Below are positions 8,771 through 39,955 of a stretch of DNA of 64,000 nucleotides, in pieces (positions within the stretch are counted from its first letter, which is position 1; each line of letters opens with the position of its first letter). The notes below the pieces were generated by a model. It saw only the letters and a list, made by a program, of their open reading frames with translations. It ran no database searches and had not been told where the DNA came from. Origin of the DNA: a virus; the IMG/VR virus record IMGVR_UViG_3300030688_000409, positions 33,065-97,064 of that record, one strand, 5' to 3'. A program made the position numbers and the translations under genes.

Positions 8771-11700
8771 CTAACGGCCTCTCCTATGGAAGGGGTTTCG
8801 GACTACATCACCCATAGAACTTTCCGTAATTCTTTGAATTTTTCGCATCCGCTCAAGAATCTGGAGGTCCCGCAAGATAACACCGTCCATATTAATGATA
8901 GCCCCTGAAGGGAGGTTCATTTGCTGTGCGATGAGTAGTGACTGACCGGAGGGGTCAATTTTCAAACCACCTTCTTCCATGAGCCACTTTTGAGCCTTCC
9001 ATGCACAGAGTTGAGCCGCGTCCACCATGTCATCATGGCTACCCTTTTCAAGCGGAGCCGCGACCCGAATCTGGTACTTGTTAACGTACTCAGCTTCGAC
9101 CAACCGCAGTTCCTTGAGGAACTTTGGAACGTAGGGGAACCGGCAGCGGGTATCGCGGACATAACCTTGGAGCACGAAAGCCATCTGTGAGTTCAATGTC
9201 GCCGTGAGGTTCACGAGTTCAATGTTGTGAATCTTGTTGAGTTCGAGCAACTGCACAAGCTGCTGTCCCCCGTGTTGGTCGGTTGCACCACGCCAGCAGG
9301 GCATCAGTACATTCAGAGCCTTGAGCCACGCTAGGATGTCTTCCAGCGGGAGAGCCTTGAATCCGACGTACTTCTCCAATCCCTGTATGTGTCCCACACC
9401 GGGGCCTTCAAACTTCTCCCCGACCATCATACGGTCGATGTAGTCATAGACCAAGTGAATCGGCTGTGAACCCCCGACATACTCCAAGTGGCCGATTGCG
9501 ACCGCCGTAGCGTCATGACTCATACCCAAGTCGATTGCCCAGAAATACTGGCGACCGATGTCCTTGGGATGGAAGTGAGACAGGTTGAACCGAGCAGAAG
9601 TTTCGTCGGGCTCTTCAAAACCACCATTCGTCTTGACATACTTCACATCAGTGCAAGCCTGAATTTGTGCTTCAGTCAAGTACGATTCAGAAGACTCAAG
9701 GAAGTTACCCCCGTATTCAGCCTTGAACGTGAGTGGGTTCTTGGTATACTCCGAACGCAGGGTTTCGGACAGGATGGTAGGGTTCATCTCCGCTGTGGAT
9801 AGCCGGATGGTGAATACCTTAGTCTCCTTCGCACCACGCTCCATGGCGTCCTTGTGAATGTCGAACATCTTACCGACCTTCGTCCAAGGGCTGGAGATGG
9901 AAAGCACAAGAGAGTCTTGGAAGGATTTGTATTCCTCCGGCTTCATAGTGGCCGCAGCGACGAGTTGGTCTACCCAGCCGCCCTTGAGGTCTTCCGCGTG
10001 CTTGAAGTTGACTGTAGACGGCGTGGCGGCTCCGTAGACCTCATCTGAGGATGAGCCCTTGGAGGAACGGAAGTGAGCGAACTCGTCCAGAGCGAGGAAG
10101 ATATTCGAAGGGCCACGGACGGCATTGGTTGTGCTGGCGTAGCTTTTGACGTTAATGGACGGAGTAACGTCACGCTTGTGACGGTCAGCTTCAGACACGA
10201 AGCCCATCCATGATGAACTGGAAGCCTTCAGATACGGGTTGAAGAAAGGAGCCCGGTTGATGTCTTCGCGGAGCTTGTCGTAGAGACGGTTGGCACCCTC
10301 TTCGTCCTGAGCCATGAATGTGAAGTCGATGTGCGACCCGGCGATGAGGCCGAAGTATTCCTGAGGCGACCGGATGTTTAGCAGTTTGTAGAGCTTGTAG
10401 GCACCGATGGCGGACACTACCTGAGAGTTGTGGGTGACATTGAAGTTCTTGCCGAACAAATACAGACTGGTAGGGTTGGTAGTGGTAATACACCGCATGG
10501 GCATCCTACCGACAGGTTGAATGTCAGTGATGAACCTCCATTTTTGAGTGGAGTTTACTGTACTAGGGAGTTCTGCCAATTTCCTTGGAAGACGGAAGAC
10601 CGGTAGGGTGCCTGTCCATGTTACCCTGTATTTCTCGCCGCAATCCCGGTCATTTAGGATAGCTCTGCCCTCCCCCCAATAGGGTTTCAGTCCGAGTGAA
10701 GCAGCGAGGTGGTATACCCCCTCCGCCAAACTACGATTTGTGTTTGTGAAGTCACATCGGCTGCGGCTGCAACTCCCATCTGTGTCCATCAGCCCCTGCA
10801 ACAGAGATAACCTTTGCGGCTCGGACGCCCATAGATATTGATGAGGGATGTGCTTGTTCTTCAAGACTCCAAGTTGACGCAAGGGAGAGAACAACCCCAG
10901 TACGTGCCACCGAGTGGGTGCTTTCTCGTTTTGGTAGAAAGTCATACCCGCCGATTCAAAGTAGGGTAGTATCTTGTCTGCATCTTCTGGGGCAGCGGTG
11001 ATAATCCCGCAATCGCTATTTCCATCCCCCAGCCATACCCCCAAACAGTAAGGGTCGAGAAGCAGGTCAATGTCAGGACAGGTTACTGCCTTTGCAAGTG
11101 GGATGCAGTGGTTTGTTTCCTGTTTCTTACCCACCCTTAGAGTAGCTAGGAGTTCTTCGGTAGTGCGCGTAGTGCCCCCAATGGCGTGCTTAGAACACTT
11201 GGCGGCTTTCCGGTCAACCTTGGTTAGGGTGTTCCACAGGTGACCGCCATGGGCGAATACGTGTGTACCATCATCAAAGGAGACCTTGAACGCCTCTAAC
11301 TCTTCAACTGGATGAGCGTACTTTACTTTGTAAACCTGTCCATCCTCACCGAATACGGCGTCTCCTTCTTCTAAATCGCCGTTTCGCTTACATCCATCTG
11401 GTGTTGGGATAGGCTCATCAACGTGAAGCATCTTCCCGCCACGCCGACCCGCAAAAATCGCCGCCTCTGTGAAGCCCCTCTCCGGCATGTCCCGCCAGTC
11501 ATTGACGTTGCAACGTCCTTCTTCATGAAGGATATGCAGGCACTCTTCCTCGCTGCACTCGCGAACAGGGTTCTCGCGGAACACATCCCACATCTGTACC
11601 TTAATAGGAGCGAAGTCAATTGGAACTGCGAAGATACACTTCACAATCAACCGCTGAAGCGGGTACAGTTTAATGTTCAGACCTTGTGGTGACTCGATAA

Positions 11701-11806
11701 ATTCAATGGCATTGAGAAGTTTACTCGCATCTTCTATGGCTCCATCTATGACTTTTCCAAAAACACTACTGTCTGTCGGTTTTGTAAAACGTTGCCCACG
11801 GGCCAT
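8771..11806 (-). CDS. terL: Terminase large subunit, interrupted by an intein
   Basis: 1011 residues; 676 remain after removal of the intein at residues 126-460. The ATPase P-loop is GRRGGK|SQ, with the intein inserted directly after the P-loop Lys. Walker B is IFLALDEFAHF (Asp574-Glu575). The RNase H-like nuclease half starts with AIDLGMSHDATA (Asp759) and ends with KGSHDDMVDA (Asp925/926/929), so nuclease acidic residues are present. TerL cuts concatemeric DNA and drives packaging into the prohead. Protein splicing is needed to restore the Walker A motif, so packaging depends on it. Confidence 0.95.
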   Translation of the reverse strand: MARGQRFTKPTDSSVFGKVIDGAIEDASKLLNAIEFIESPQGLNIKLYPLQRLIVKCIFAVPIDFAPIKVQMWDVFRENPVRECSEEECLHILHEEGRCNVNDWRDMPERGFTEAAIFAGRRGGKMLHVDEPIPTPDGCKRNGDLEEGDAVFGEDGQVYKVKYAHPVEELEAFKVSFDDGTHVFAHGGHLWNTLTKVDRKAAKCSKHAIGGTTRTTEELLATLRVGKKQETNHCIPLAKAVTCPDIDLLLDPYCLGVWLGDGNSDCGIITAAPEDADKILPYFESAGMTFYQNEKAPTRWHVLGLFSPLRQLGVLKNKHIPHQYLWASEPQRLSLLQGLMDTDGSCSRSRCDFTNTNRSLAEGVYHLAASLGLKPYWGEGRAILNDRDCGEKYRVTWTGTLPVFRLPRKLAELPSTVNSTQKWRFITDIQPVGRMPMRCITTTNPTSLYLFGKNFNVTHNSQVVSAIGAYKLYKLLNIRSPQEYFGLIAGSHIDFTFMAQDEEGANRLYDKLREDINRAPFFNPYLKASSSSWMGFVSEADRHKRDVTPSINVKSYASTTNAVRGPSNIFLALDEFAHFRSSKGSSSDEVYGAATPSTVNFKHAEDLKGGWVDQLVAAATMKPEEYKSFQDSLVLSISSPWTKVGKMFDIHKDAMERGAKETKVFTIRLSTAEMNPTILSETLRSEYTKNPLTFKAEYGGNFLESSESYLTEAQIQACTDVKYVKTNGGFEEPDETSARFNLSHFHPKDIGRQYFWAIDLGMSHDATAVAIGHLEYVGGSQPIHLVYDYIDRMMVGEKFEGPGVGHIQGLEKYVGFKALPLEDILAWLKALNVLMPCWRGATDQHGGQQLVQLLELNKIHNIELVNLTATLNSQMAFVLQGYVRDTRCRFPYVPKFLKELRLVEAEYVNKYQIRVAAPLEKGSHDDMVDAAQLCAWKAQKWLMEEGGLKIDPSGQSLLIAQQMNLPSGAIINMDGVILRDLQILERMRKIQRITESSMGDVVRNPFHRRGR
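10427..11431 (-). other. Class 3 intein with LAGLIDADG endonuclease inside terL
   Basis: 335 residues (126-460 of the precursor). It starts with Met-Leu-His-Val rather than Cys or Ser and ends VTHN before Ser461. Non-nucleophilic first residue plus HLW in block B (Trp191), RCI in block F (Cys439) and THN in block G (Thr458) form the W-C-T triad that defines class 3 inteins. The two endonuclease motifs are CLGVWLGDGN (near 254-263) and LLQGLMDTDGS (335-345), with acidic residues present, so homing activity may be intact. Confidence 0.88.
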
Positions 11807-11876
11807 TCAACATTCCTCTACTAGAAGAGGACAATATTGGCGAAATTACTGGAAATTTTTTAGGAAGAAAATCCCG

Positions 11877-11906
11877 TTGCAATTTGTGTGGAGTCTCTGG
11901 TATAAT
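11877..11906 (+). promoter_or_regulatory. Sigma-70-like promoter for the structured RNA / zinc-ribbon gene
   Basis: TTGCAA at 11877-11882 and TATAAT at 11901-11906 separated by 18 nt, with G-G directly before the -10. This is one of the best consensus-like promoters in the window, and it points away from terL. Confidence 0.7.
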
Positions 11907-11913
11907 TGGAGGA

Positions 11914-12051
11914 TGCGGCTCGACTAGAATTTGCCAAAAAGAAGTAAGGCCACTAACCGCTCATGGCGGGGTCTGAACGGGAGCCTCAATTCTATGTCGG
12001 GCACTTGAGGGAGGGGTGATGGGTGGTATTGCCCCTCCCACTCACCTTTTT
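11914..12051 (+). ncRNA. Structured leader RNA or small RNA with attenuator-like terminator
   Basis: Begins about 8 nt after the -10 box. A 14-bp closing helix pairs 11918-11931 with 11988-12002 (one bulged U), enclosing at least two hairpins, including CCGC-TCATG-GCGG near 11957-11969. A terminator-like hairpin GGGAGGGG (12009-12016) / CCCCTCCC (12032-12039) with CCTTTTT (12045-12051) follows. CCTCAA (11984-11989) can also pair with TTGAGG (12005-12010), which would disrupt both the closing helix and the terminator. This is a riboswitch- or attenuator-like layout; ligand or partner unknown. It may equally be a free small RNA. Confidence 0.6.
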
Positions 12052-12060
12052 GGAGGAACT

Positions 12061-12258
12061 ATGGCGAAGAGAGTATGGCAATGCGATTCATGCAAGAAGG
12101 CGAATGAACAGGAACCATGGGAGTGCCCCGGATGTGGGAACGAAACGTGTGACTCCTGCTTCGACCGTTATGCTCATTGCAGAGCGTGCTCTATGAACAA
12201 GCGTGATGAGGACTTACGGCTGGCAGCTAACGCTGCTGGGTACGACTTCGAAGCCTAA
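12061..12258 (+). CDS. Zinc-ribbon/RING-like small protein
   Basis: 65 residues starting MAKRVWQCDSCKKANE behind an ideal GGAGG (12052-12056). Cys pairs CDSC, CPGC, CDSC and CRAC suggest two zinc sites in a cross-brace or tandem ribbon, followed by a short helix. It is the only plus-strand gene here, driven by the 11.88 kb promoter through the structured leader. The longer frame from 12016 lacks a ribosome-binding site and overlaps the terminator hairpin, so the 12061 start is preferred. Its stop overlaps the convergent gene's stop. Confidence 0.75.
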   Translation: MAKRVWQCDSCKKANEQEPWECPGCGNETCDSCFDRYAHCRACSMNKRDEDLRLAANAAGYDFEA

Positions 12259-12641
12259 CGACCGAGTTTCGCCAGAACATCACGGGCGTGAGCTTGAGCG
12301 TTCTTGAACTCAGAATCCCAGTTGGTTGCTGCTGCCTTTTTGGCAGGGATAGACCCGCCCCGCTGGAAGACACCAGAGGTTGTAGGAACACGACGTAGGG
12401 ACGCGGAGACTGGTAAGGCACGGTGGGAGGTCTCGTCCACATCTTCGCCAGCTTCGATGGCCATCTCTTTGAGGGCTGATTGCACGGCAGCACGCTCTTC
12501 AGGAGAAGCGGTAGGTTCTACCGCCTCCAGAAGGTCATCAAAGCCGTCATCGGCATCAGCTTCAACGTCGATGAGGCTCAGGTGTTCCTGCCATGAGACC
12601 GAAGCTGTATCCGTTTTTACCCCACGACGTAGGTTAGCCAT
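12255..12641 (-). CDS. Hypothetical virion-region protein
   Basis: 128 residues. Acidic middle (DVEADADDGFDDLLEAVEP), a helical segment PEERAAVQSALKEMAIEAGE, and a basic/Ala-rich C terminus. Low complexity suggests a scaffold- or chaperone-like role, but no family is recognised. Lies between a structural-type gene and terL. Confidence 0.55.
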   Translation of the reverse strand: MANLRRGVKTDTASVSWQEHLSLIDVEADADDGFDDLLEAVEPTASPEERAAVQSALKEMAIEAGEDVDETSHRALPVSASLRRVPTTSGVFQRGGSIPAKKAAATNWDSEFKNAQAHARDVLAKLGR

Positions 12642-12653
12642 TCAGTGGAATCC

Positions 12654-13022
12654 TCAACTCAGCGGTACTACTTCAATAGCTCCGTTAACAATCTGCAACT
12701 CATAGTTCGTTCCAGTAGTCGCATCTGTTATTGGTATGCTGGTATTACCCGTAGATGTCCCTGAGAACAAGTTCTCCATGTCTGCCATAAACGCCTGAGC
12801 CACCGCATCATAAAGTATGTGAGGTTGAGAATTGGTGTTACCCGTGGTGGCGGCGTAGTATATCCAAACCTGATTATGATTCAACAGAGTTTCTATTCTC
12901 TGTATAGCATTAATCTCAAGCATCATTTCCAAACCTTGGGGCGAAATGTCCGGGTCTGGTTTGTACCACCAAAGAGAGGTGGTGAATGTAGGATTAAGTT
13001 GAAACCCAGATTGATTCGCCAT
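12654..13022 (-). CDS. Virion-type protein with C-terminal NGA module
   Basis: 122 residues. The last 24 residues (DATTGTNYELQIVNGAIEVV) match a module also found at the ends of the proteins at 50472-51368 and 54750-55409. The N-terminal part is predicted alpha/beta. A strong ribosome-binding site (AAGGAG) precedes ATG 13022. The shared module suggests a particle-surface or attachment protein; function unknown. Confidence 0.6.
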   Translation of the reverse strand: MANQSGFQLNPTFTTSLWWYKPDPDISPQGLEMMLEINAIQRIETLLNHNQVWIYYAATTGNTNSQPHILYDAVAQAFMADMENLFSGTSTGNTSIPITDATTGTNYELQIVNGAIEVVPLS

Positions 13023-13110
13023 TTACTCCGCCTTCTCCTTGCGCTTTCCAACTGAATTGAATTGATTTGATCTGATTTACCCTTGTTACAACGAGTTGTC
13101 TGAAAGGGCG

Positions 13111-16017
13111 TTAGTCGGAGTCCTTGGTTCCAGTCACAAATTTGTATTTTAGGAGCATAGATTCGGTGTCAATGGTCTCAGCACGGACAAAAACCTCATA
13201 CACAAATCCGCCGTCTTTTGCTTCATGCCATACGGCTGCTTGTGCAAAAGCGTCATTAACACAATCCTGCACCTGACTATCCGTGAGCTTGTCCATGAGG
13301 TACTTGACACGAGAGCCGGTGTTGATGAGATTGTAGGCCGGGTTCATGGTGCTCGGCTGTTCAATCTGTGCCAACTGAATCTCACCGAGTCCCGGAATCT
13401 TGTTCATGGGCATACGAGTGGTGGCCTTGAAGGCACCGATGAAGGCAGCGGCAACTTCGCCCATGACCTTCTTGAGGAAGAGGCCAAACTGATTCTTCTC
13501 GTCACCAGCGGCAACCTTGGCCGTGAGCGATGCGAACGCTGAACCCGGAACCATGTCGGTGCCAGCGTAGAACTCTTCGGTGAACATCGGCCCCCGGATA
13601 TCGTTCTCCTTGCGGAGGGGGGCACCTTCAAGAACCTGTGACTTACCGTCGCGACCGATACCCATACCACCAGCCGGTGATGTGGAAACGTAGCCGATGC
13701 GAGTCATGCCTTCGAAGGCATCCTCAATGGCACCGGGCAGCATCTCTTCGCCGTTCTCATCGCCGGGAACCGTGTGAGCGTCACCGGACATCTCTGCTGG
13801 CATAGGAGCGTTGCTGGCGTTCGGGTAGGAGATAAGCTCGTGCTGGAGTTGAGGGTAGAACTGCTCAATCACCTGTCCACCAATCTGCTGGGGGGCAAAG
13901 CTGAATCCTGCTGACTTCATAGAACCTTCCTTCTTGGGTGAATCGCCTACATACTCTAAAAACCATGGTGGAACACTCGCGGAGCCCCAGTTGCCCTCCA
14001 CCATTTTGTCTGTTCTGATATCAACAGACTGAATGGTGCTGTCTGGCTGGGCTTCTGCTTCCCGCTTATGCGTGTAGCCAACGACGGTTGCAAGTTCGCC
14101 CGGTTTCATCAACCAACCATCAGTTTGACTGACCCGGACAAGTCGTACACGGTCGCCGGGTTCCAAACGGGTAGAGCGGGAGCCGTCTCCATGCTCTTTA
14201 ACGATACGGAAAGCTGTCTTTGCAGGAATAACACGAACTGGATTACCTCCCGACATTGTGCTCACCTTGATTTCCGCTGCGATTTCCTTGGCATCCTCGG
14301 TACCAAATTCACCGTCGAAGCGGGTTGCCTTCTCTTCTTCAGGGACGATACGGTAGGTTTGGTCAGGTGCAACCATCACGTACTGGTCACCAACCATGAT
14401 GATGTACACACGCGAGGAAGGCTGAGTTTGGCCTTGATATGGTTCCCGAAAGTCAAGGAACTTCGGGCCGGGGCCGTCGATGTCGGACATGCCGGAGGTG
14501 ACAGGTTGGTCTTCCCCACCGATAGCTGGCGCGGCAGACTTGGGTAGATTGACAAATTTAAACGGCCATTGCTTTCCACAATCATCACATTTGTTTATGT
14601 CCCATAGGGGCTGACCCTTCTGCCACGGGTCATAGCGACGACCGTCCTTGTAGTATGCTGTGTTGTCCAACGAGCCGCAGTCAGGGCACTGGTCAGGACG
14701 AACCACCTTGAATTTATCCCCAAACTTAGCTGATGCGCCTTTGATGAAGGCATTAGCCGTCGCCACGTTGGAGAACATTAGGGTCTTCTTTTTACCCGCG
14801 ATGTTGATGATAAGTTGCGTCCCGCTACTCTTGTCCACGGTGATTTCCTTAACCTCGTTTTTAACTTCAGCTTGGGTCTGTTCAATCGGTTTGCCCACTT
14901 CCATCTCAACTTGGGTCTCAATGACTTCACGCATCGCGTTTACATTAGGACGTTCGGTGTGATGTACTGCTCCATCCAACACTTCCACTCCACCCTTGGT
15001 CGAAGCCGGAGAAGAGTTGATGCCGATATCATCCTTAGCCCCCCCTGTACCGGTAGGAGCAGGGGACATCGTTTCGAGTTGTGCATCGCTGGTAATCATA
15101 CCCTGCTTCTCTTGCTGGGCCTTGTACTTGTTGTACTTCGGATTCGTGCAGACAGCCAACGGGTCTCCATCATTGAGCCTGTAGTGGTAGTACGTGCCAC
15201 CGTTGCCCTTCACCGGGGCTTGCTCGGCGTAGGGCATCTTACCCGCACAGTATTCACATCCTTCAGCCGCTCCCTGCTTGAACGGGGCACGACGTGCCGC
15301 CTCATCCTGTGCTGACTCTTCCCTCTTTTTAGCCATAAGGGCTGAAGTGTCAGCCTTACGCTTATCAAGTTCACACTGAGAGTGGGTGGTGAAAATGTTG
15401 GTGTAGTCAGATGGGCTTCCTCCGTGGCGCTCAGCACGTTCCTTCGCCGATGGCGACAGGGTGATTGGCTTGTGGCAGATGGTGCAAAGCTTTGCTCCGG
15501 TCTTGGCAGCAAAGATTTCCGGGTGCCGTGCTCTGTCTTCAGGGGAGGGAACCGTACCACCAGTGCCGTGACAGATGTTACAAGTCTGCGGGATGCTGGA
15601 GTTGGGCTCCGTTGAACGGAACTTACCCTGTCCGTTGCAGTGCTTGCAAGCTCCGCTCGGATACATCGTTTGAGGGTTCCATGCACCAGTCTTGGTGCGG
15701 GGCGGCGGGAACTGTTTGCCGTTCTTGTCGTAGATAATGTACTCGTCTCCGTGTGCAGCCTCAGTCAACTCCGCGATGTCCTGAGGAGTGAGGTAGGGCT
15801 CATCGGTGGGGTCGGCTTCTACAGTGTTGTACAACAGTTCATGGGAGGCACACCACGGGTCTTGGCTGAGACTGCTCATGTGGTTACCGCAAGAGTGGCC
15901 GTTAGCATTCTTGGCCTCGCACTCCGGCTGCTCTTCACCAAATGACCCAGCCCAATCCTCGTACTGCTGTGAGGTTGCACCGGGCATGTTGTAGTCGGAT
16001 TTCTTATCGGTAGCCAT
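13111..16017 (-). CDS. Large multi-zinc structural-type protein (968 aa)
   Basis: The N-terminal part is rich in Cys clusters: CEAKNANGHSCGNH, a DnaJ-type pair CKHCNGQGKF...CNICHGTG near residues 125-150, CTICHKPI, CEYCAGKM, then CPDCGS...CDDCGKQW near 445-490. The second half has Lys/Ala-Ser segments (e.g. KKEGSMKSAGFSF) reminiscent of cleavage sites in processed virion proteins, and a helical C-terminal domain. The last codons overlap nothing downstream; the start overlaps the stop of the 1138-aa gene by 1 nt. Probably a head or tail structural protein; no family recognised. Confidence 0.6.
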   Translation of the reverse strand: MATDKKSDYNMPGATSQQYEDWAGSFGEEQPECEAKNANGHSCGNHMSSLSQDPWCASHELLYNTVEADPTDEPYLTPQDIAELTEAAHGDEYIIYDKNGKQFPPPRTKTGAWNPQTMYPSGACKHCNGQGKFRSTEPNSSIPQTCNICHGTGGTVPSPEDRARHPEIFAAKTGAKLCTICHKPITLSPSAKERAERHGGSPSDYTNIFTTHSQCELDKRKADTSALMAKKREESAQDEAARRAPFKQGAAEGCEYCAGKMPYAEQAPVKGNGGTYYHYRLNDGDPLAVCTNPKYNKYKAQQEKQGMITSDAQLETMSPAPTGTGGAKDDIGINSSPASTKGGVEVLDGAVHHTERPNVNAMREVIETQVEMEVGKPIEQTQAEVKNEVKEITVDKSSGTQLIINIAGKKKTLMFSNVATANAFIKGASAKFGDKFKVVRPDQCPDCGSLDNTAYYKDGRRYDPWQKGQPLWDINKCDDCGKQWPFKFVNLPKSAAPAIGGEDQPVTSGMSDIDGPGPKFLDFREPYQGQTQPSSRVYIIMVGDQYVMVAPDQTYRIVPEEEKATRFDGEFGTEDAKEIAAEIKVSTMSGGNPVRVIPAKTAFRIVKEHGDGSRSTRLEPGDRVRLVRVSQTDGWLMKPGELATVVGYTHKREAEAQPDSTIQSVDIRTDKMVEGNWGSASVPPWFLEYVGDSPKKEGSMKSAGFSFAPQQIGGQVIEQFYPQLQHELISYPNASNAPMPAEMSGDAHTVPGDENGEEMLPGAIEDAFEGMTRIGYVSTSPAGGMGIGRDGKSQVLEGAPLRKENDIRGPMFTEEFYAGTDMVPGSAFASLTAKVAAGDEKNQFGLFLKKVMGEVAAAFIGAFKATTRMPMNKIPGLGEIQLAQIEQPSTMNPAYNLINTGSRVKYLMDKLTDSQVQDCVNDAFAQAAVWHEAKDGGFVYEVFVRAETIDTESMLLKYKFVTGTKDSD

Positions 16018-19000
16018 TATTTCACCCCTACAACAATTCCGTCCTTAACCATAACTTCCGCGTACCAGCGATGGGGCTCTGGGTACCAAGGGCCTTCGAC
16101 TGTTGCCCGACCATTCATTGGGGGTTCACCCATGCCGGGGTTATAGAGAGAAATCTGCTTGCCAGACAGAACAGCTTCCCTGAAGTCCTTCTTACTCTTG
16201 AAATTCTTGCTGGCGTAAGAGCCCGTCTTTGCACCAGCGGTAATCTGTGTCGGAAGATTGTCGGCGAGGTCGGCCAGTTCGCCAAAGGTGTCGCTCATCT
16301 CTACTGCCTCATCGTGCTCGTCACCAGCGGCGGCGAAGTGCTCTGGGTTCACGGTCTTGGTTGCTTCAGGGCTGTCGGCTAGTTCAGCCTTGGCACCAGC
16401 ATCCAGTTCAGACTTCGCATCAGCAATGTCACCAGAAATAGCATCCGCCCTCTTACGAGCGATGGCAGCAAGTACCTTCACCTTTGCGGCTTCCTCAACC
16501 GACTTCACCGGCTGCTTGATGTCAGCATCGACCGATGCAGGGGACTCCACTTCGGCCTTAGCCTCAGAGATGTCCCCACTTATATCAGCAGCGGACTTGG
16601 ACGCCTGTGCCTCTTCCTGCTTCTTCAACTGCTCCTGCTGCTTCACACGCTGCATCTCACGGTACTTGTCGTCTCCCGTGGAGTCCGTTTTAGCAACCTT
16701 ATCGTCACGCAGACCGTCGTCGCAACCACCAACCTTAGCCGCTTCTTCAACGGTCTTGACCGGCTGCTTGATGTCGGCGTCAACTGTGGTCGGAGATACA
16801 ACCTCAGCCTTGGCTTCGGAGATGTCTGCGCTCACGTCGTTGCCCGTCTTCGAGGGAGGGCAGTCACACTGAGTGCTAATCTTGTTGCAACCACTGCACG
16901 AGTAGTAGTTGTCTTCCTCGCCTTCTCCGCCAATCAGCTTACGTCCGCACTTGCAAGGGAATAGGGCAGTCGCCTTCTTCGCCGCAGCCACCTTCTTCGA
17001 ACTGATGACCAATGACGGCATGACCATACCAGCTTTGAGACCGCGACGGGTCATGAACGCCTTGATAGGTGCCATCGCCTTCTTGACATCTTCAACGGTG
17101 ACGGGCACCTGACCCGGCATACTGTTGCGGCTGTTGTCCTTAGCCTTCTGTACCAGACCCATCAGCGATGACGCAGCGTGAGCCGGAAGCGGCCACGAGT
17201 GCCAACCATCGGAGTTGCTGTTGACTTCATCAGCGAACGCGGCGAGGAAGTTGCACACCGGCCCGATGATTGGGTCTTGAGCGAACCGACGCTGGGCGTC
17301 CTGAATCTCGTAGTCGTTCATCCAAGTAGCCATCTTAGCCGAGGCTGACTTGTCAGGGCGGTGTTCGTCGCAGTACATGCGTCCGTCAATCTTGACCGTC
17401 TCAGGCTTCATGCAGACCTGACCCGGACCTTTTGCCCGACCCTGAGTGTCTGTCTCGCCGACGTAAGTACGGCAACCGTGTTCACCGGGATACTGGTCAA
17501 ACGCAGCTTCCTTCGGAGTTTCCTTCTTCTCTTCCTTCGGCTCTTCAGCCTTGGGCTCCGCTGGCTTCTCGGCCTTGTCCTTGTTGAACATCTTGGACTT
17601 GAACCCGTCCTTCTTGGGAGCATCGGTCTTAGGTTCAGATTCGGAAACGCCGCTGTCGCCAGTCTCATCGCCGCCCTTGGGAGCGGAGCCTTCACCCGGA
17701 AGTTCAACCTGCGGAGCCTCACCGAAGTCTTCGGTGATAGCATCCCAGATGCTATCTTCAGTCAGATTCACGTTGGCCTTCTTGCGACGGATGGCGTACT
17801 TGTTCAGGTGGTTCTCGTTCTTCACACGTGCGGCCTTGGCGTTGGTCGAGAGTGCGTCGGTGTCATCGGTCAAGTCCAAGTCGATGGCGTCAACCACCGC
17901 AGCCACGATGTCGAAGCTGGTCTTCTTCGCTGACTTTGCTGACTCCAATGGTCGTTCCCGCAACACGTGAGCCGGGAGACCCTCAAGCTTCTCCATCATG
18001 ATGCCGCCCTTGGCTTCCCAGTAGCGGTTGGCATCCTCATAAGAAGTGCAGACTCGTCCATTCACGGTGTACTGTGGATATGACGCAGCAACCTTACGCT
18101 CTTCCTCAGCACGACGCGGCACACCGGTCTCGTCAATTGCGATACCGATAGGTGCGTCACCCTTGGTCGAGATGGTGTCAACTGCTACAGCGATAGCCTT
18201 GTTCGCATTGTCGTGAGCGGAGGTTCCCGGCCCGACGTTGGTGAACGGGGTCTCGAAAGGAGCCTCTGAGCCCATCTTCATGGCGTCTTCGTTCATCTCC
18301 TGCGTGTAGGAACCCTTCTCGCCGTAGTCAGGGCGATGACGCAGTTCTGTTCCGTCATCAAGAGCCGAAACCTTTGACAGACTATCTGCGGCCCTCTGGA
18401 GCACAGTCTTCTTTGTATTCTCATCAAAGCCCATAAATTCTTTGATGGACATACCCGCTTCTGCCAATAACGAAGACATAGGGTACCGATTAGGGTTTGC
18501 CGCAGCAGTCTTCGGCTCATCCTCTTCCTTGGTGTTTTGGATGGAGTCCTTGATGTCGGCAATTTCTGGAATCTCAGCGTTGCCGTGGTTGGAACCGTCA
18601 GGCCCCTTGTAGTCGGCCACATCTTCCATCGCATCAACCGGAGGCATGGTGACTTCATTGAGAACCGCGTCGAGTTCATCGAACACGCTCAACTCCTGAG
18701 GCTCAAGCACTTCCTGAGTGATGGCGTCCGCCGTCTTGGCGGTGAGGAAAATCTTGGTCTTCGTCCAACCACCCTGCTTCGAGAACTCAGGGTACGCAGT
18801 GAGCGGATTCTGAGTGAGGAAGGGGTAGGTCAGCTTCGGGGTGATGTCGGTAACGTCCAGCTTGTTGGTGTCCACCGTGGTCATCAATGCGTCGAACGCG
18901 GAGGAGACAGCCGGGTTGAAGTACGCCGAGAACACAAGGTGGCGGAGCAGGTTAGAGAGCTTATCGTCTTCGTCCGTGAACTTGAAGCCGATGTACTCGC

Positions 19001-19433
19001 GGATGTTCGACCAGTGAGGAGCGAAGATAACCAGCGAGGTTAAGTCGCCCTCCTCGTTCGTGAAGAACTTGTCCTTGATAGCGGCGTAGTCAGCTTGGCT
19101 GTATTCATCAAATTCGGTGTCGCCCATTTTGTTGGTGATGAGGTCTGCGGTCTCTTCGCCGAGATTCAGTTCCTTGACCACAGTGCCGTAGAGCAGGGCA
19201 ATGGGGAAGTTGTTACGAACGTCGCAGACCTTCGCCGGGACGATGAAGATGCGCCCGATGGAGATGTTCTGACGGAAACCTGAATAAAAAATCTCAAAAG
19301 ATTTTACATCGCCAGACGTGCGTGCGTCTTTCTCACCAGCCTTGACGGCCTCTACGACCTTGGCGAGGAGCCCTTCGTTGACAACGAAGGACTGGAAAGA
19401 TTTAATTGCGACTGAGTTCCCACTAGCGGCCAT
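16017..19433 (-). CDS. Large structural-type protein (1138 aa) with internal repeats and zinc motifs
   Basis: An N-terminal folded domain (about residues 1-250) is followed by a long Glu/Lys/Ala-rich region. Two Cys clusters are visible: CMKPET...CDEHRPDK, and FPCKCGRK...CSGCNKISTQCDCP. A repeat SGDISEAKAEV...VDADIKQPVK occurs twice, with a shorter third copy (SGDIADAKSEL), in the last 250 residues. Likely a virion or prohead component. Position in the operon between a possible packaging helper and the multi-zinc protein supports a structural role. Confidence 0.6.
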   Translation of the reverse strand: MAASGNSVAIKSFQSFVVNEGLLAKVVEAVKAGEKDARTSGDVKSFEIFYSGFRQNISIGRIFIVPAKVCDVRNNFPIALLYGTVVKELNLGEETADLITNKMGDTEFDEYSQADYAAIKDKFFTNEEGDLTSLVIFAPHWSNIREYIGFKFTDEDDKLSNLLRHLVFSAYFNPAVSSAFDALMTTVDTNKLDVTDITPKLTYPFLTQNPLTAYPEFSKQGGWTKTKIFLTAKTADAITQEVLEPQELSVFDELDAVLNEVTMPPVDAMEDVADYKGPDGSNHGNAEIPEIADIKDSIQNTKEEDEPKTAAANPNRYPMSSLLAEAGMSIKEFMGFDENTKKTVLQRAADSLSKVSALDDGTELRHRPDYGEKGSYTQEMNEDAMKMGSEAPFETPFTNVGPGTSAHDNANKAIAVAVDTISTKGDAPIGIAIDETGVPRRAEEERKVAASYPQYTVNGRVCTSYEDANRYWEAKGGIMMEKLEGLPAHVLRERPLESAKSAKKTSFDIVAAVVDAIDLDLTDDTDALSTNAKAARVKNENHLNKYAIRRKKANVNLTEDSIWDAITEDFGEAPQVELPGEGSAPKGGDETGDSGVSESEPKTDAPKKDGFKSKMFNKDKAEKPAEPKAEEPKEEKKETPKEAAFDQYPGEHGCRTYVGETDTQGRAKGPGQVCMKPETVKIDGRMYCDEHRPDKSASAKMATWMNDYEIQDAQRRFAQDPIIGPVCNFLAAFADEVNSNSDGWHSWPLPAHAASSLMGLVQKAKDNSRNSMPGQVPVTVEDVKKAMAPIKAFMTRRGLKAGMVMPSLVISSKKVAAAKKATALFPCKCGRKLIGGEGEEDNYYSCSGCNKISTQCDCPPSKTGNDVSADISEAKAEVVSPTTVDADIKQPVKTVEEAAKVGGCDDGLRDDKVAKTDSTGDDKYREMQRVKQQEQLKKQEEAQASKSAADISGDISEAKAEVESPASVDADIKQPVKSVEEAAKVKVLAAIARKRADAISGDIADAKSELDAGAKAELADSPEATKTVNPEHFAAAGDEHDEAVEMSDTFGELADLADNLPTQITAGAKTGSYASKNFKSKKDFREAVLSGKQISLYNPGMGEPPMNGRATVEGPWYPEPHRWYAEVMVKDGIVVGVK

Positions 19434-19592
19434 TTTATGCTCCTACTTTCATACACTTCATATTATGAAGGTGGTTGTAAACTTGTGTTACATGCGCTTC
19501 GAACGCCTCAGTAGATAGGGCACTCTTCCAGCTATTGCAGCTACCGATTACGGTCAAGAGACCAAACCTGCGATTTGTCAAATCTATGAGTT

Positions 19593-20105
19593 TCATTTCT
19601 TACCTATAGCCATAGTTTCCTTACGAATTTTCGCCTCATTTATTTGCATTTCATCACGGTAGTGCCGCATAATACTTGTTCGCAGGTCTTCTCCCACCCC
19701 AGCCTCTTTCAACGCTTTGACAAAGCTATCAACAATAACCCCCAATACATAGGTGAATTTTGCCCCGTCAAAGTTGAGAACGTCCTTCTTGCTCAAGTAG
19801 TCTGCGTCACCCAACTGCTTGCCGAGTTCACGCAACGCTCTCAGTTGCTGCTCGTAGACTTTCAACCGGGTGGTGTCCATTGGCCCATCGCCAAGGCAGT
19901 CGCTCAAGTCTTCGGCTACTCTGGCAATCTCTACGGCAATCATACGGCTGGCTTCAGCGGGGTCGTAGTTCGGGTTAGTAATGCTCTCCCGAATGTTCTC
20001 CACACGTTCCCTGCGGATACGGCGGTCTTTCTCCCGTTCCGATTCAAGCACCGTGATGCTGCCGTCTTCATTCACTTCTACACCGCTGGTATTCCTACCG
20101 CTCAT
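19593..20105 (-). CDS. Hypothetical helical protein, possible packaging or head helper
   Basis: 170 residues. Charged N terminus (ESEREKDRRIRRERVENIRE) followed by helices with ITNPNYDPAEASRMIAVEI. Size, charge and position upstream of large virion genes would fit a small terminase or chaperone, but there is no diagnostic motif. Its ATG overlaps the GIY-YIG stop by 4 nt. Confidence 0.5.
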   Translation of the reverse strand: MSGRNTSGVEVNEDGSITVLESEREKDRRIRRERVENIRESITNPNYDPAEASRMIAVEIARVAEDLSDCLGDGPMDTTRLKVYEQQLRALRELGKQLGDADYLSKKDVLNFDGAKFTYVLGVIVDSFVKALKEAGVGEDLRTSIMRHYRDEMQINEAKIRKETMAIGKK

Positions 20106-23494: not shown

Positions 23495-23573
23495 CAATAG
23501 AGGTTCATAGTTCTAAAACTTTTCCCAAGAAAAACCCCGAATTATGATTTACAAACTATGACCCTCTATATCA
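23495..23573. promoter_or_regulatory. Divergent ACTATGA/CCTCTA elements between two gene starts
   Basis: On the minus strand AACTATGAACCTCTATTGG (about 23512-23494) precedes gene 23479. On the plus strand AACTATGACCCTCTATATC (about 23554-23572) precedes gene 23585. The two copies face away from each other in a 105-nt intergenic region. See the finding on the recurring ACTAY element; promoter function is inferred. Confidence 0.5.
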
Positions 23574-23584
23574 GAGGGATTCTC

Positions 23585-31391: not shown

Positions 31392-31513
31392 AAAAGCATC
31401 TCCTACTTCTCAGTATACCAAGCACATCGCTCTTTTGGTTAGTTTTTTTTGAAAACTATTTTCTCGGTCGTACCGTTAACCTTTCTGACTATTGACCTCT
31501 TTAGTAGAGGTTC

Positions 31514-33058: not shown

Positions 33059-33319
33059 TTAGCTCACGTAGGCGGTGATTTCATAGTCGCCCGATACTTC
33101 CATTTTGTACCACGACAGGCAGAGCCAAGTGTTGACACCGACCTGCTCGTTTACCCGGCCTTCACGACCGCAGTAGATTCCCTCTTCCATGCCCTTGAGA
33201 CCAGCCTGATTCAGGATGGCGTCGATGTCGGCGATGGGGATGAAGCGGTGGTAGGTCGCCATCGCGGCGAGAAGCTTGTTCGCAATCTTACGGGCTCGGG
33301 TTTCGTTCACGTTTGCCAT
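33059..33319 (-). CDS. Small early-type protein, leaderless start
   Basis: 86 residues, MANVNETRARKIANKLLAAM, then FIPIADIDAILNQAGLKGME (EF-hand-like or helical) and a beta C terminus. The ATG lies 6 nt after a conserved -10 TATACT, leaving no room for a ribosome-binding site. Confidence 0.65.
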   Translation of the reverse strand: MANVNETRARKIANKLLAAMATYHRFIPIADIDAILNQAGLKGMEEGIYCGREGRVNEQVGVNTWLCLSWYKMEVSGDYEITAYVS

Positions 33320-36343: not shown

Positions 36344-36486
36344 GCGACACAATGTTACCGGTTAAGAGCTTTTTAGCGGATAAGCGGCACAACGTTACCG
36401 GTTAGAGGGTTCTATCCCTATATGCTTTTGGGGGATTGTGAGCGCACACTAAAGTGAAATAGTTGAACTTTTTGGTAACAATGTGG
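36344..36486. repeat. Repeated CACAAYGTTACC operator- or iteron-like sites
   Basis: A 25-nt element (GCGACACAATGTTACCGGTT..) at 36344-36368 recurs at 36384-36408, exactly 40 nt downstream in the same orientation. A near-match in inverse orientation (GGTAACAATGTGG) lies at 36474-36486. The sites fill the gap between the divergent promoter C and gene 36524, as expected for operators or a replication-initiator array. The 36275-36523 gap holds no gene. Confidence 0.65.
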
Positions 36487-36523: not shown

Positions 36524-36688
36524 ATGGAGAAGTTTTTGGTTGGATTTGAAGACACCGCAGCACTGGCCGTTCCCCCTGAGATTTACGAGGTCCGGAAGCA
36601 GCGGATGAAGAGGCTCATTGAACTGGGAGCCCCTATGGTAGTCATTCGGAACGAGGCGGTCATTCTCTTGACTTGCTTCAAAACGTAA
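36524..36688 (+). CDS. Small protein (54 aa), possible regulator
   Basis: ATG 36524 behind AAGGAGG: MEKFLVGFEDTAALAVPPEI, a basic helix VRKQRMKRLIELG, and a strand MVVIRNEAVILL. It is a single-gene plus-strand transcript flanked by the repeated CACAAYGTTACC sites upstream and a terminator downstream, which suggests an autoregulated switch or early regulator (inference). Confidence 0.65.
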   Translation: MEKFLVGFEDTAALAVPPEIYEVRKQRMKRLIELGAPMVVIRNEAVILLTCFKT

Positions 36689-36690
36689 GG

Positions 36691-36716
36691 AGGGGAGCCT
36701 TTACTGGCTCCCCTTC
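36691..36716 (+). terminator. Rho-independent terminator
   Basis: GGGGAGCC (36692-36699) and GGCTCCCC (36706-36713), loop TTTACT, followed by TTCTCT. Directly after gene 36524. Confidence 0.8.
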
Positions 36717-36772
36717 TCTAACTCATGAGGGCACACGCCCCCATTATTCACTCGACCACAGTTGCAGTGTGA

Positions 36773-37585
36773 TTATAGCTCGATGCCGTACCGCTTGGCA
36801 ATACGGTTGCGGGTACGCTCACGAACGGATGCGGCCTTGTTCTCTTCAGAGCTTCCCTGTGCTTCGGGAATCTCCAGCTTGGCTGGTGCCTCAGGCTTGG
36901 CGTTGTTGTCGCGGTCAGTGATGAACGGGACGGAGCCATCGGCCTTTTTTTCCTTCTTAGTATGAATCGGGTCTTTCTCTTTCTTATGGCACTCTTCGCA
37001 GAAATCTGTGCTGTGACCTGCCGCAAACGGGGTCATTTTGTAAGCGTGAGGTTTAGTTTTAATCTTGGCTTCCTTGTCGAAAGCTTCCTCAGCCGGTTTG
37101 GCTTCAGAAGACTCAAGTTCCTTTTCGCCTTCCTCGAACTTCTCCTCGTCAACGGTAATCTTCTCTTCAGGATGTTCCTTCTCGCCTTCGACAACTTCCT
37201 TCTCACCCTCTTCGGCGAAAGCATCTTCGACCGGGGTCAGGTCGAGGTCAATACCCATGTTCTCGGCGAGAGCTTCAATCGCACCGGCAACATCATCGAG
37301 TGAGTGATAAACCTCGCTGATAGCGTCGGCCACAACTTCAGGGGCCTCTTCAGCGATACGCTTGAACGCGGTCGCGTACTTCTTGGTGGTAGCAAGACGG
37401 ACTTGGATGGAGGCAGTCTTCGGAGCCTCGATGAGGTCGAGATTGTCACGCAGGTTCGACAAGGCGTCGGCCATAGTGCCAAGAGCGTCGGCTACTTCCG
37501 CGAGAGCCACATCAGCTTCTTTCGGCTCCTCGCCAGCTACCTGACGGAGACGAGCCCACTTCGATTGTTCATTCTTACTAGCCAT
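36773..37585 (-). CDS. Virion-region protein, acidic with a zinc motif
   Basis: 270 residues. Helical N-terminal domain (VALAEVADALGTMADALSNL), a long Glu/Lys-rich low-complexity middle, then GHSTDFCEECHKKEKDPIH, a C-x2-C-H metal site, and a basic C terminus TRNRIAKRYGIEL. A small hairpin (CTGCA/TGCAG) precedes its ribosome-binding site. Resembles scaffold or internal head proteins in composition. Confidence 0.55.
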   Translation of the reverse strand: MASKNEQSKWARLRQVAGEEPKEADVALAEVADALGTMADALSNLRDNLDLIEAPKTASIQVRLATTKKYATAFKRIAEEAPEVVADAISEVYHSLDDVAGAIEALAENMGIDLDLTPVEDAFAEEGEKEVVEGEKEHPEEKITVDEEKFEEGEKELESSEAKPAEEAFDKEAKIKTKPHAYKMTPFAAGHSTDFCEECHKKEKDPIHTKKEKKADGSVPFITDRDNNAKPEAPAKLEIPEAQGSSEENKAASVRERTRNRIAKRYGIEL

Positions 37586-39533: not shown

Positions 39534-39603
39534 GCTTTTTCACCTACTGTAGGTTTAGAAAATATTTACCCGTGACATGGTTGACAATCAAATAAATGAA
39601 CAT

Positions 39604-39636
39604 ACGAATAACCCTCTAGTATAGAGGGTTATTCGT
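39604..39636. terminator. 15-bp perfect hairpin
   Basis: ACGAATAACCCTCTA (39604-39618) and its exact complement TAGAGGGTTATTCGT (39622-39636) around a 3-nt loop. It sits between the stop of gene 39655 and the start of gene 39533. On the minus strand it overlaps a CAACTACGAATAACC element, so it may combine terminator and promoter functions. Confidence 0.6.
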
Positions 39637-39654
39637 AGTTGACATTTCGACTGG

Positions 39655-39876
39655 TCAATCCGTGAGAGGATCGTTAGGTGCTCCGTCAGTCTTCTTATCT
39701 TCTGACATCACTGCCTTCAAAGTTTCGAGGTACTCGCTGTGATCCTCGAATGCTTGTGGGTCGTGGGGAGCACCCTTGTCGTCGGAAGCAGCGTACTTGA
39801 CGCCCATGCGGTTCAATTCCGAACCGTAAAGTGAGTTCATCGCGTCTGCGTCGGACTTTGCGATTTTCTTAGCCAT
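39655..39876 (-). CDS. Small hypothetical protein (73 aa)
   Basis: MAKKIAKSDADAMNSLYGSE with acidic helices and GAPHDPQAFEDHSEYLETLK; ends DGAPNDPLTD, echoing GAPHDPQ inside. AGGAG precedes ATG 39876. Function unknown. Confidence 0.6.
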   Translation of the reverse strand: MAKKIAKSDADAMNSLYGSELNRMGVKYAASDDKGAPHDPQAFEDHSEYLETLKAVMSEDKKTDGAPNDPLTD

Positions 39877-39955
39877 GGTAACTTTTCTCCTGTTTGAGGT
39901 CAAAATGAAATCCTCTATATAATAGAGGCTTTCATAGTTGAAAATTAGAGGTTAT

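Follow-up and report, generated by a model that had tools for sequence, protein, structure and literature searches.

A predicted folded leader ahead of a zinc-ribbon gene in a moron-like cassette beside the terminase gene of a soil phage

What is a stretch of DNA with the look of a riboswitch doing beside the terminase gene of a phage? The question is raised by virus record IMGVR_UViG_3300030688_000409 (97,064 bases), of which we analysed a part of 64,000 nucleotides, positions 33,065 to 97,064 (hereafter the window). An initial annotation had read positions 11,877 to 12,060 of the window as an undescribed structured RNA with its own promoter and attenuator, placed between terL and a zinc-ribbon gene. 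Our analysis shows that the feature is real but modest, ordinary in kind and partly mis-drawn in that annotation. Promoter, leader, ribosome-binding site and zinc-ribbon gene are collinear and form a cassette read on the plus strand, opposite to terL and the next late gene. The features of the locus are the following.

8771 to 11806, minus strand: terL
11807 to 12254: gap of 448 nt between terL and the next late gene, holding the cassette
11877 to 11906, plus strand: sigma-70 type promoter by consensus match, TTGCAA-18 nt-TATAAT with a TG extension
11918 to 11931 with 11988 to 12002, plus strand: predicted closing helix P1, 14 pairs, one of them G-U, U11995 bulged
12009 to 12039, plus strand: predicted 13-bp hairpin, pair probability 0.96-1.0, dominating the predicted ensemble
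12015 to 12051, plus strand: alternative stem 12015-12023/12037-12046 with bulged C12041, then T5; terminator score d = -6.3
12047 to 12051, plus strand: T5, the T-run
12052 to 12056, plus strand: ribosome-binding site GGAGG, by sequence
12061 to 12258, plus strand: gene of a 65-aa zinc-ribbon protein with eight Cys, the start taken as 12061 in keeping with where the L005 relative starts
12255 to 12641, minus strand: late gene after terL

Among named phages in the collection, Tunturiibacter phage Tunturi_5, a 309-kb jumbo phage (PMC11924767), has the TerL closest to that of the window (49% identity in the alignment). This closest named relative suggests that the host of the present phage is probably a member of Acidobacteriota. 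The TerL of the window carries, after its Walker A motif (GRRGGK/S), an in-frame insertion with a LAGLIDADG_3 domain that resembles an intein; the TerL of Tunturi_5 is without this insertion. As to the start of the zinc-ribbon gene, a rough gene caller chose the ATG at 12019 (79 aa), and alignment with the L005 relative points to 12061. An 18-codon frame starts at 11963, and its TGA (12017-12019) overlaps the ATG at 12019, which lies in the frame of the zinc-ribbon gene.

In related phages the place beside terL looks different. L011 and L012 (TerL 67%), whose sequences agree fully over the 900 nt preceding terL, are without the cassette there: 56 nt separate terL from the homologue of the gene at 12255-12641. 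In L017 (TerL 54%) the gap is taken up by an ORF of 86 aa, and in L016 (TerL 57%) a different ORF adjoins terL. Among these four, the gap is thus empty or filled with different ORFs, as at a variable site. Searching for the zinc-ribbon protein with E up to 1 gave nothing in the L011, L012, L017 and L018 records and one weak match in the L016 record (E = 0.016, 30%), inside a 1139-aa frame. Because the cassette is missing beside terL in relatives, we conclude with considerable confidence that RNA and gene together form a moron-like accessory cassette in a variable position. Phage morons are accessory genes with their own promoter. The cassette shares with them an extra small gene, a promoter of its own that matches the consensus, and a variable site between late genes in opposite direction; it differs in its long leader, in the terminator-like stem before the gene and in being without a good terminator after it.

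The promoter at 11877-11906 is the best of six candidates between 8000 and 20000, matching 10/12 positions. Furthermore, ten stretches of the 183,684-base sister record contain 17 sites with at least 10/12 matches, and it alone among these carries the TG extension. Promoter-like sites as such are not in excess, since the six found between 8000 and 20000 compare with a shuffle mean of 6.3. The consensus-like promoter claimed for this RNA is present, with modest support from its sequence. We infer that transcription starts near 11912-11914.

We then come to the fold of the leader. A 14-bp closing helix with one bulge had been described, and P1 matches that description; its mean pair probability is 0.97 when the leader is folded alone. 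For the leader (11914-12060) the predicted folding energy is -55.6 kcal/mol (z = -2.31), which 5 of 200 shuffles equal, and a repeat run with 20 shuffles per stretch gave z = -2.24. Among 147-nt stretches of the window, 10/261 on the same strand and 15/261 on the opposite strand reach a z as low (20 shuffles each). The predicted folding of the leader thus appears modestly unusual, and a folded leader before the zinc-ribbon gene has modest support. The strongest folds of the 522 sampled stretches were 39546-39692 (z = -5.7 on the plus and -5.1 on the minus strand) and 36606-36752 (z = -3.6 and -5.0), which outfold the leader and contain hairpins at or between genes.

Parts of the leader differ in how well they fold. 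P1 with its core (11918-12003) is equalled by 2/200 shuffles, and the same region with wider ends (11912-12009) by 13/200 (z = -1.42). The 13-bp hairpin with its tail (12009-12053) is equalled by 3/200, or by 6/200 when taken from 12001. A multi-hairpin core had been drawn inside P1; P1 does enclose a core (11932-11987), but this core is weakly structured and, taken alone, 134/200 shuffles fold as well (z = +0.54). We counted helices like P1, defined as at least 14 bp with at most one G-U and a loop of 30-120. The 64-kb window holds one, against a shuffle mean of 0.87, and 60 of 100 shuffles hold at least one; with a loop of 40-80, 0/6 shuffles do. Since this frequency is near the shuffle mean, P1 is notable for its place just after the promoter and not for existing. 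When at least 80 bases of the gene are added, the predicted P1 may yield to long-range pairing, its mean probability ranging from 0.0 to 0.94 with the ends chosen. The ribosome-binding site is partly paired in the predicted ensemble (mean unpaired 0.38).

A GC-rich hairpin with a T-run had been placed directly against the ribosome-binding site of the next gene. The hairpin, T5 and GGAGG are all there, but the 13-bp hairpin ends 7 nt before T5 and does not abut it. We scored terminators with the d'Aubenton-Carafa formula, counting as a terminator a GC-rich stem directly before a T-run with d > 0. The 13-bp hairpin (d = -39.6) scores as no terminator, and the alternative stem that does abut T5 is terminator-like and weak, with a d below 0. 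The two stems share bases and are mutually exclusive. In the predicted ensemble the 13-bp hairpin has a probability of about 1 and the T-abutting stem of about 0, the read-through form being favoured by 4 to 5 kcal/mol, so that read-through is the default prediction. Thus the attenuator is unsupported as it was drawn, although there is another stem, abutting T5, that competes with the main hairpin. This stem ranks 8th among plus-strand candidates in the 64 kb. The real strands contain 8 and 7 sites as good, against a mean of 2.0 per shuffled strand (20 shuffles), and by our own arithmetic from that mean per 64-kb strand such a stem would be expected by chance in a 150-nt leader with a probability of about 0.5%. 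Seven places in the window carry nine strand-sites (3 plus, 6 minus) with d > 0. As control readings we scored canonical-looking hairpins of the phage, of which 6/10 lie above 0 (4.3 to 36.8) and 4/10 below (-0.1 to -11.8). A d of -6.3 is therefore weak, yet not disqualifying for some termination. After the zinc-ribbon gene there is no good terminator, plus-strand candidates from 12258 to 20000 reaching d = -19.1 at best. The proposed antiterminator pairing CCTCAA/TTGAGG is at chance level: one 6-mer pairing is seen against a shuffle mean of 1.0, and at least one occurs in 538/1000 shuffles. Forcing the pairing costs 12.6 kcal/mol.

Short hairpins of the form CCTCT-N-AGAGG lie at 11815-11830, 23563-23577, 31496-31510, 39613-39627 and 39912-39928. 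Ten stretches of the 183-kb sister record hold six of them, against 1-4 in each of ten shuffles. Their AGAGG arm resembles the ribosome-binding site at terL and at two plus-strand ATGs.

The zinc-ribbon protein resembles a RanBP-type Pfam family below the cut-off (19.1 vs 27 bits). Its AlphaFold model is poor (mean pLDDT 55.4) and its sequence matches in the PDB are weak (best E = 0.028). Besides identical copies, the only full-length relative is the one at L005 (60% in the alignment), which sits in a row of plus-strand genes with the upstream gene overlapping its start by four bases. R1, a covariance model built from one sequence and therefore insensitive, finds no match to the leader there. 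The relative being without such a leader, gene and RNA are not tied together, and neither looks part of the packaging module. Zinc sensing by the RNA had been put forward as a speculative option; with the L005 relative leaderless, we regard the idea as unsupported. Partial zinc-ribbon matches at L006, L007 and L026-L029 gave no R1 match. No zinc-ribbon relative was confirmed in genome contigs, where 64 stretches matched a pattern, and the phage collection yielded none with E up to 1. Tunturi_5 has a weak match (E = 0.13, 39%) over a hypothetical gene, which we judged chance.

Does the RNA itself have relatives? The DNA is identical in three other records, and these copies carry no sequence variation. 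Scanning the window with Rfam at the gathering cut-off gave 0 matches, so that no known family, riboswitches included, is recognised; with E up to 5, positions 11700-12300 gave one match, mir-9201, whose 14.7 bits (E = 4.2) fall far short of the cut-off of 95.5. Rfam gave nothing useful at loci L011, L016, L017 and L005, and a tRNA/tmRNA search found none. We ran R1 on 16 sources, nine whole records, 80 of at least 119 stretches with the P1 pattern and two more loci, several of the searched records being fragments, and it returned identical copies and L042 only; L169 gave no match. Together, R1, patterns in viral contigs and BLAST against phages and plasmids yielded no convincing diverged homologue. 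One exact 27-nt pattern was absent from bacterial genomes. BLAST against phages gave one 29-nt match for 11800-12700, lying outside the RNA, and one 19-nt match (E = 6) for 11908-12060, and against plasmids it gave none. DNA searches of ten records, the sister record aside, gave short matches only (best E = 0.048). In the literature searched, which was limited in scope, we found no description of this RNA.

Two candidates were rejected. At L042 (8094-8189, minus strand) both P1 arms recur with the same 56-nt spacing between the arm patterns, and a stricter arm pattern finds only this site and three identical copies. R1 scores it at E = 0.044 among the 80 stretches and at E = 0.002 among two loci, these stretches having been chosen for their P1 arms, and its flanks match at 23/48 positions against a mean of 11.8 (sd 3.2) among 81 distinct matches listed, L042 included and the window's own sequence excluded. 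The inside is unrelated and the arms lie in a frame of 3459 aa resembling that of a tail fibre; we take the site as chance (about 1e-4, a post hoc estimate) and as an unexplained coincidence. The other candidate, L170, has an 18-nt match to the core and a similar hairpin arm on one side after one gap. It resembles a lambdoid region, read on the opposite strand, that lies below a Q-like gene and that we take to be a late promoter leader. A 'terminator' is annotated in MF807953.1 and U82619.2. The likeness to the lambdoid late leader with its terminator is confined to this core match and arm, whereas that terminator reads on the opposite strand, the window is without the T-run and R1 does not match; we judged it chance.

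The reading that we favour, tentatively and a little short of calling it probable, is that the accessory mRNA begins with a structured 5' leader, that the default is read-through and that the 5' helix stabilises the message. A phage related to an Acidobacteriota jumbo phage would have acquired a self-contained, moron-like transcription unit, inserted in opposite direction between its terL and the late gene that follows. Its host-type promoter would make a leader of about 148 nt, counted from the putative start, in which P1 is predicted to fold at the very 5' end and the 13-bp hairpin to form next, blocking the weaker T-abutting stem. RNA polymerase would then read through by default and the zinc-ribbon protein would be translated from GGAGG-ATG at 12061, while partial termination at 12047-12051 may tune output. 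Stable 5' stems are known to protect mRNA, and the cassette RNA resembles the ompA leader with its stabilising 5' stem in having a stable helix few bases from its presumed 5' end; by this analogy, the 5' helix and the hairpin most plausibly protect and insulate the mRNA. Weighing against the leader reading are the middling significance of the fold, the possible loss of the predicted P1 when part of the gene is included, the partly paired ribosome-binding site and the want of a good terminator after the gene.

The pairing may also be mostly accidental, leaving an ordinary untranslated leader with one long inverted repeat and a GC-rich hairpin that are functionless, a reading that we find rather unlikely but take seriously. 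It gains from a leader fold only within the lowest 4-6% of the sampled stretches, from the roughly one P1-like helix expected per 64 kb, from a core that is unstructured alone and a z that drops with wider ends, and from searches that found no convincing diverged homologue. It has to accept, however, that the only strong promoter found with a TG extension is followed within 150 nt by both P1 and a T-abutting stem of so rarely expected a score. The two exclusive stems of the leader would allow a conditional terminator, that is an attenuator or riboswitch in which 12009-12039 gives read-through and 12015-12046 with T5 gives a stop, the choice lying with a ligand or protein, with the P1 core, or with a ribosome on a short frame upstream. 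The cassette is like attenuators and terminator-type riboswitches in its promoter, folded leader, exclusive stems and T-run beside the ribosome-binding site, and the rank of the T-abutting stem and the control readings below 0 are in keeping with this. It is unlike them in that this stem is weak, outscored by the sites with d > 0 and disfavoured in energy, the CCTCAA/TTGAGG pairing is at chance, Rfam finds no match and R1, patterns and BLAST gave no diverged relatives, and we consider conditional termination clearly improbable. The cassette's sole terminator-like site precedes the gene, which would fit a free small RNA that ends at T5 after about 135 nt, the gene being expressed by leak-through; as the terminator is weak and the gene with its good ribosome-binding site begins directly behind it, the chance of this reading is small. 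Somewhat of a long shot is an undescribed class of phage conditional leader, in which the P1 core, or the zinc-ribbon protein binding its own leader, picks between read-through and stop in autogenous control. RanBP-type zinc ribbons bind GGU triplets, and the alternative stems contain several of these. An RNA working with terminase in packaging had been suggested by the place next to terL, and this position, which recalls the phi29 packaging RNA near packaging genes, is all that speaks for it. Unlike the phi29 RNA, this one has no Rfam match and its cassette is absent beside terL in L011, L012, L016 and L017, which weakens the idea; R1, insensitive as it is, has no hit over the full records of L008, L011, L016 and L017 (some maybe fragments), and transcription runs away from terL. 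We give packaging a nearly negligible chance. Riboswitch, free small RNA and packaging RNA are all unsupported, each at its own low probability.

If the leader is functional, the locus would be an example of an accessory gene under RNA-level control of its own, at a variable site by terL, in a phage whose host group, probably Acidobacteriota, is little studied. As it stands, the locus mainly documents a variable accessory site, and the riboswitch-like look of a single sequence is insufficient without relatives.

Other sites of the window carry signals of their own. Two copies of GCG(A/G)CACAA(T/C)GTTACCGGTTA, operator-like, lie at 36344-36364 and 36384-36404, upstream of a small plus-strand gene (36524-36688). 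On the minus strand of 36691-36801, a promoter TTGCCA-18-TATAAT (11/12) faces a GC-rich hairpin (36714-36691) with d = -11.8 on that strand, and this region is possibly another short transcript.
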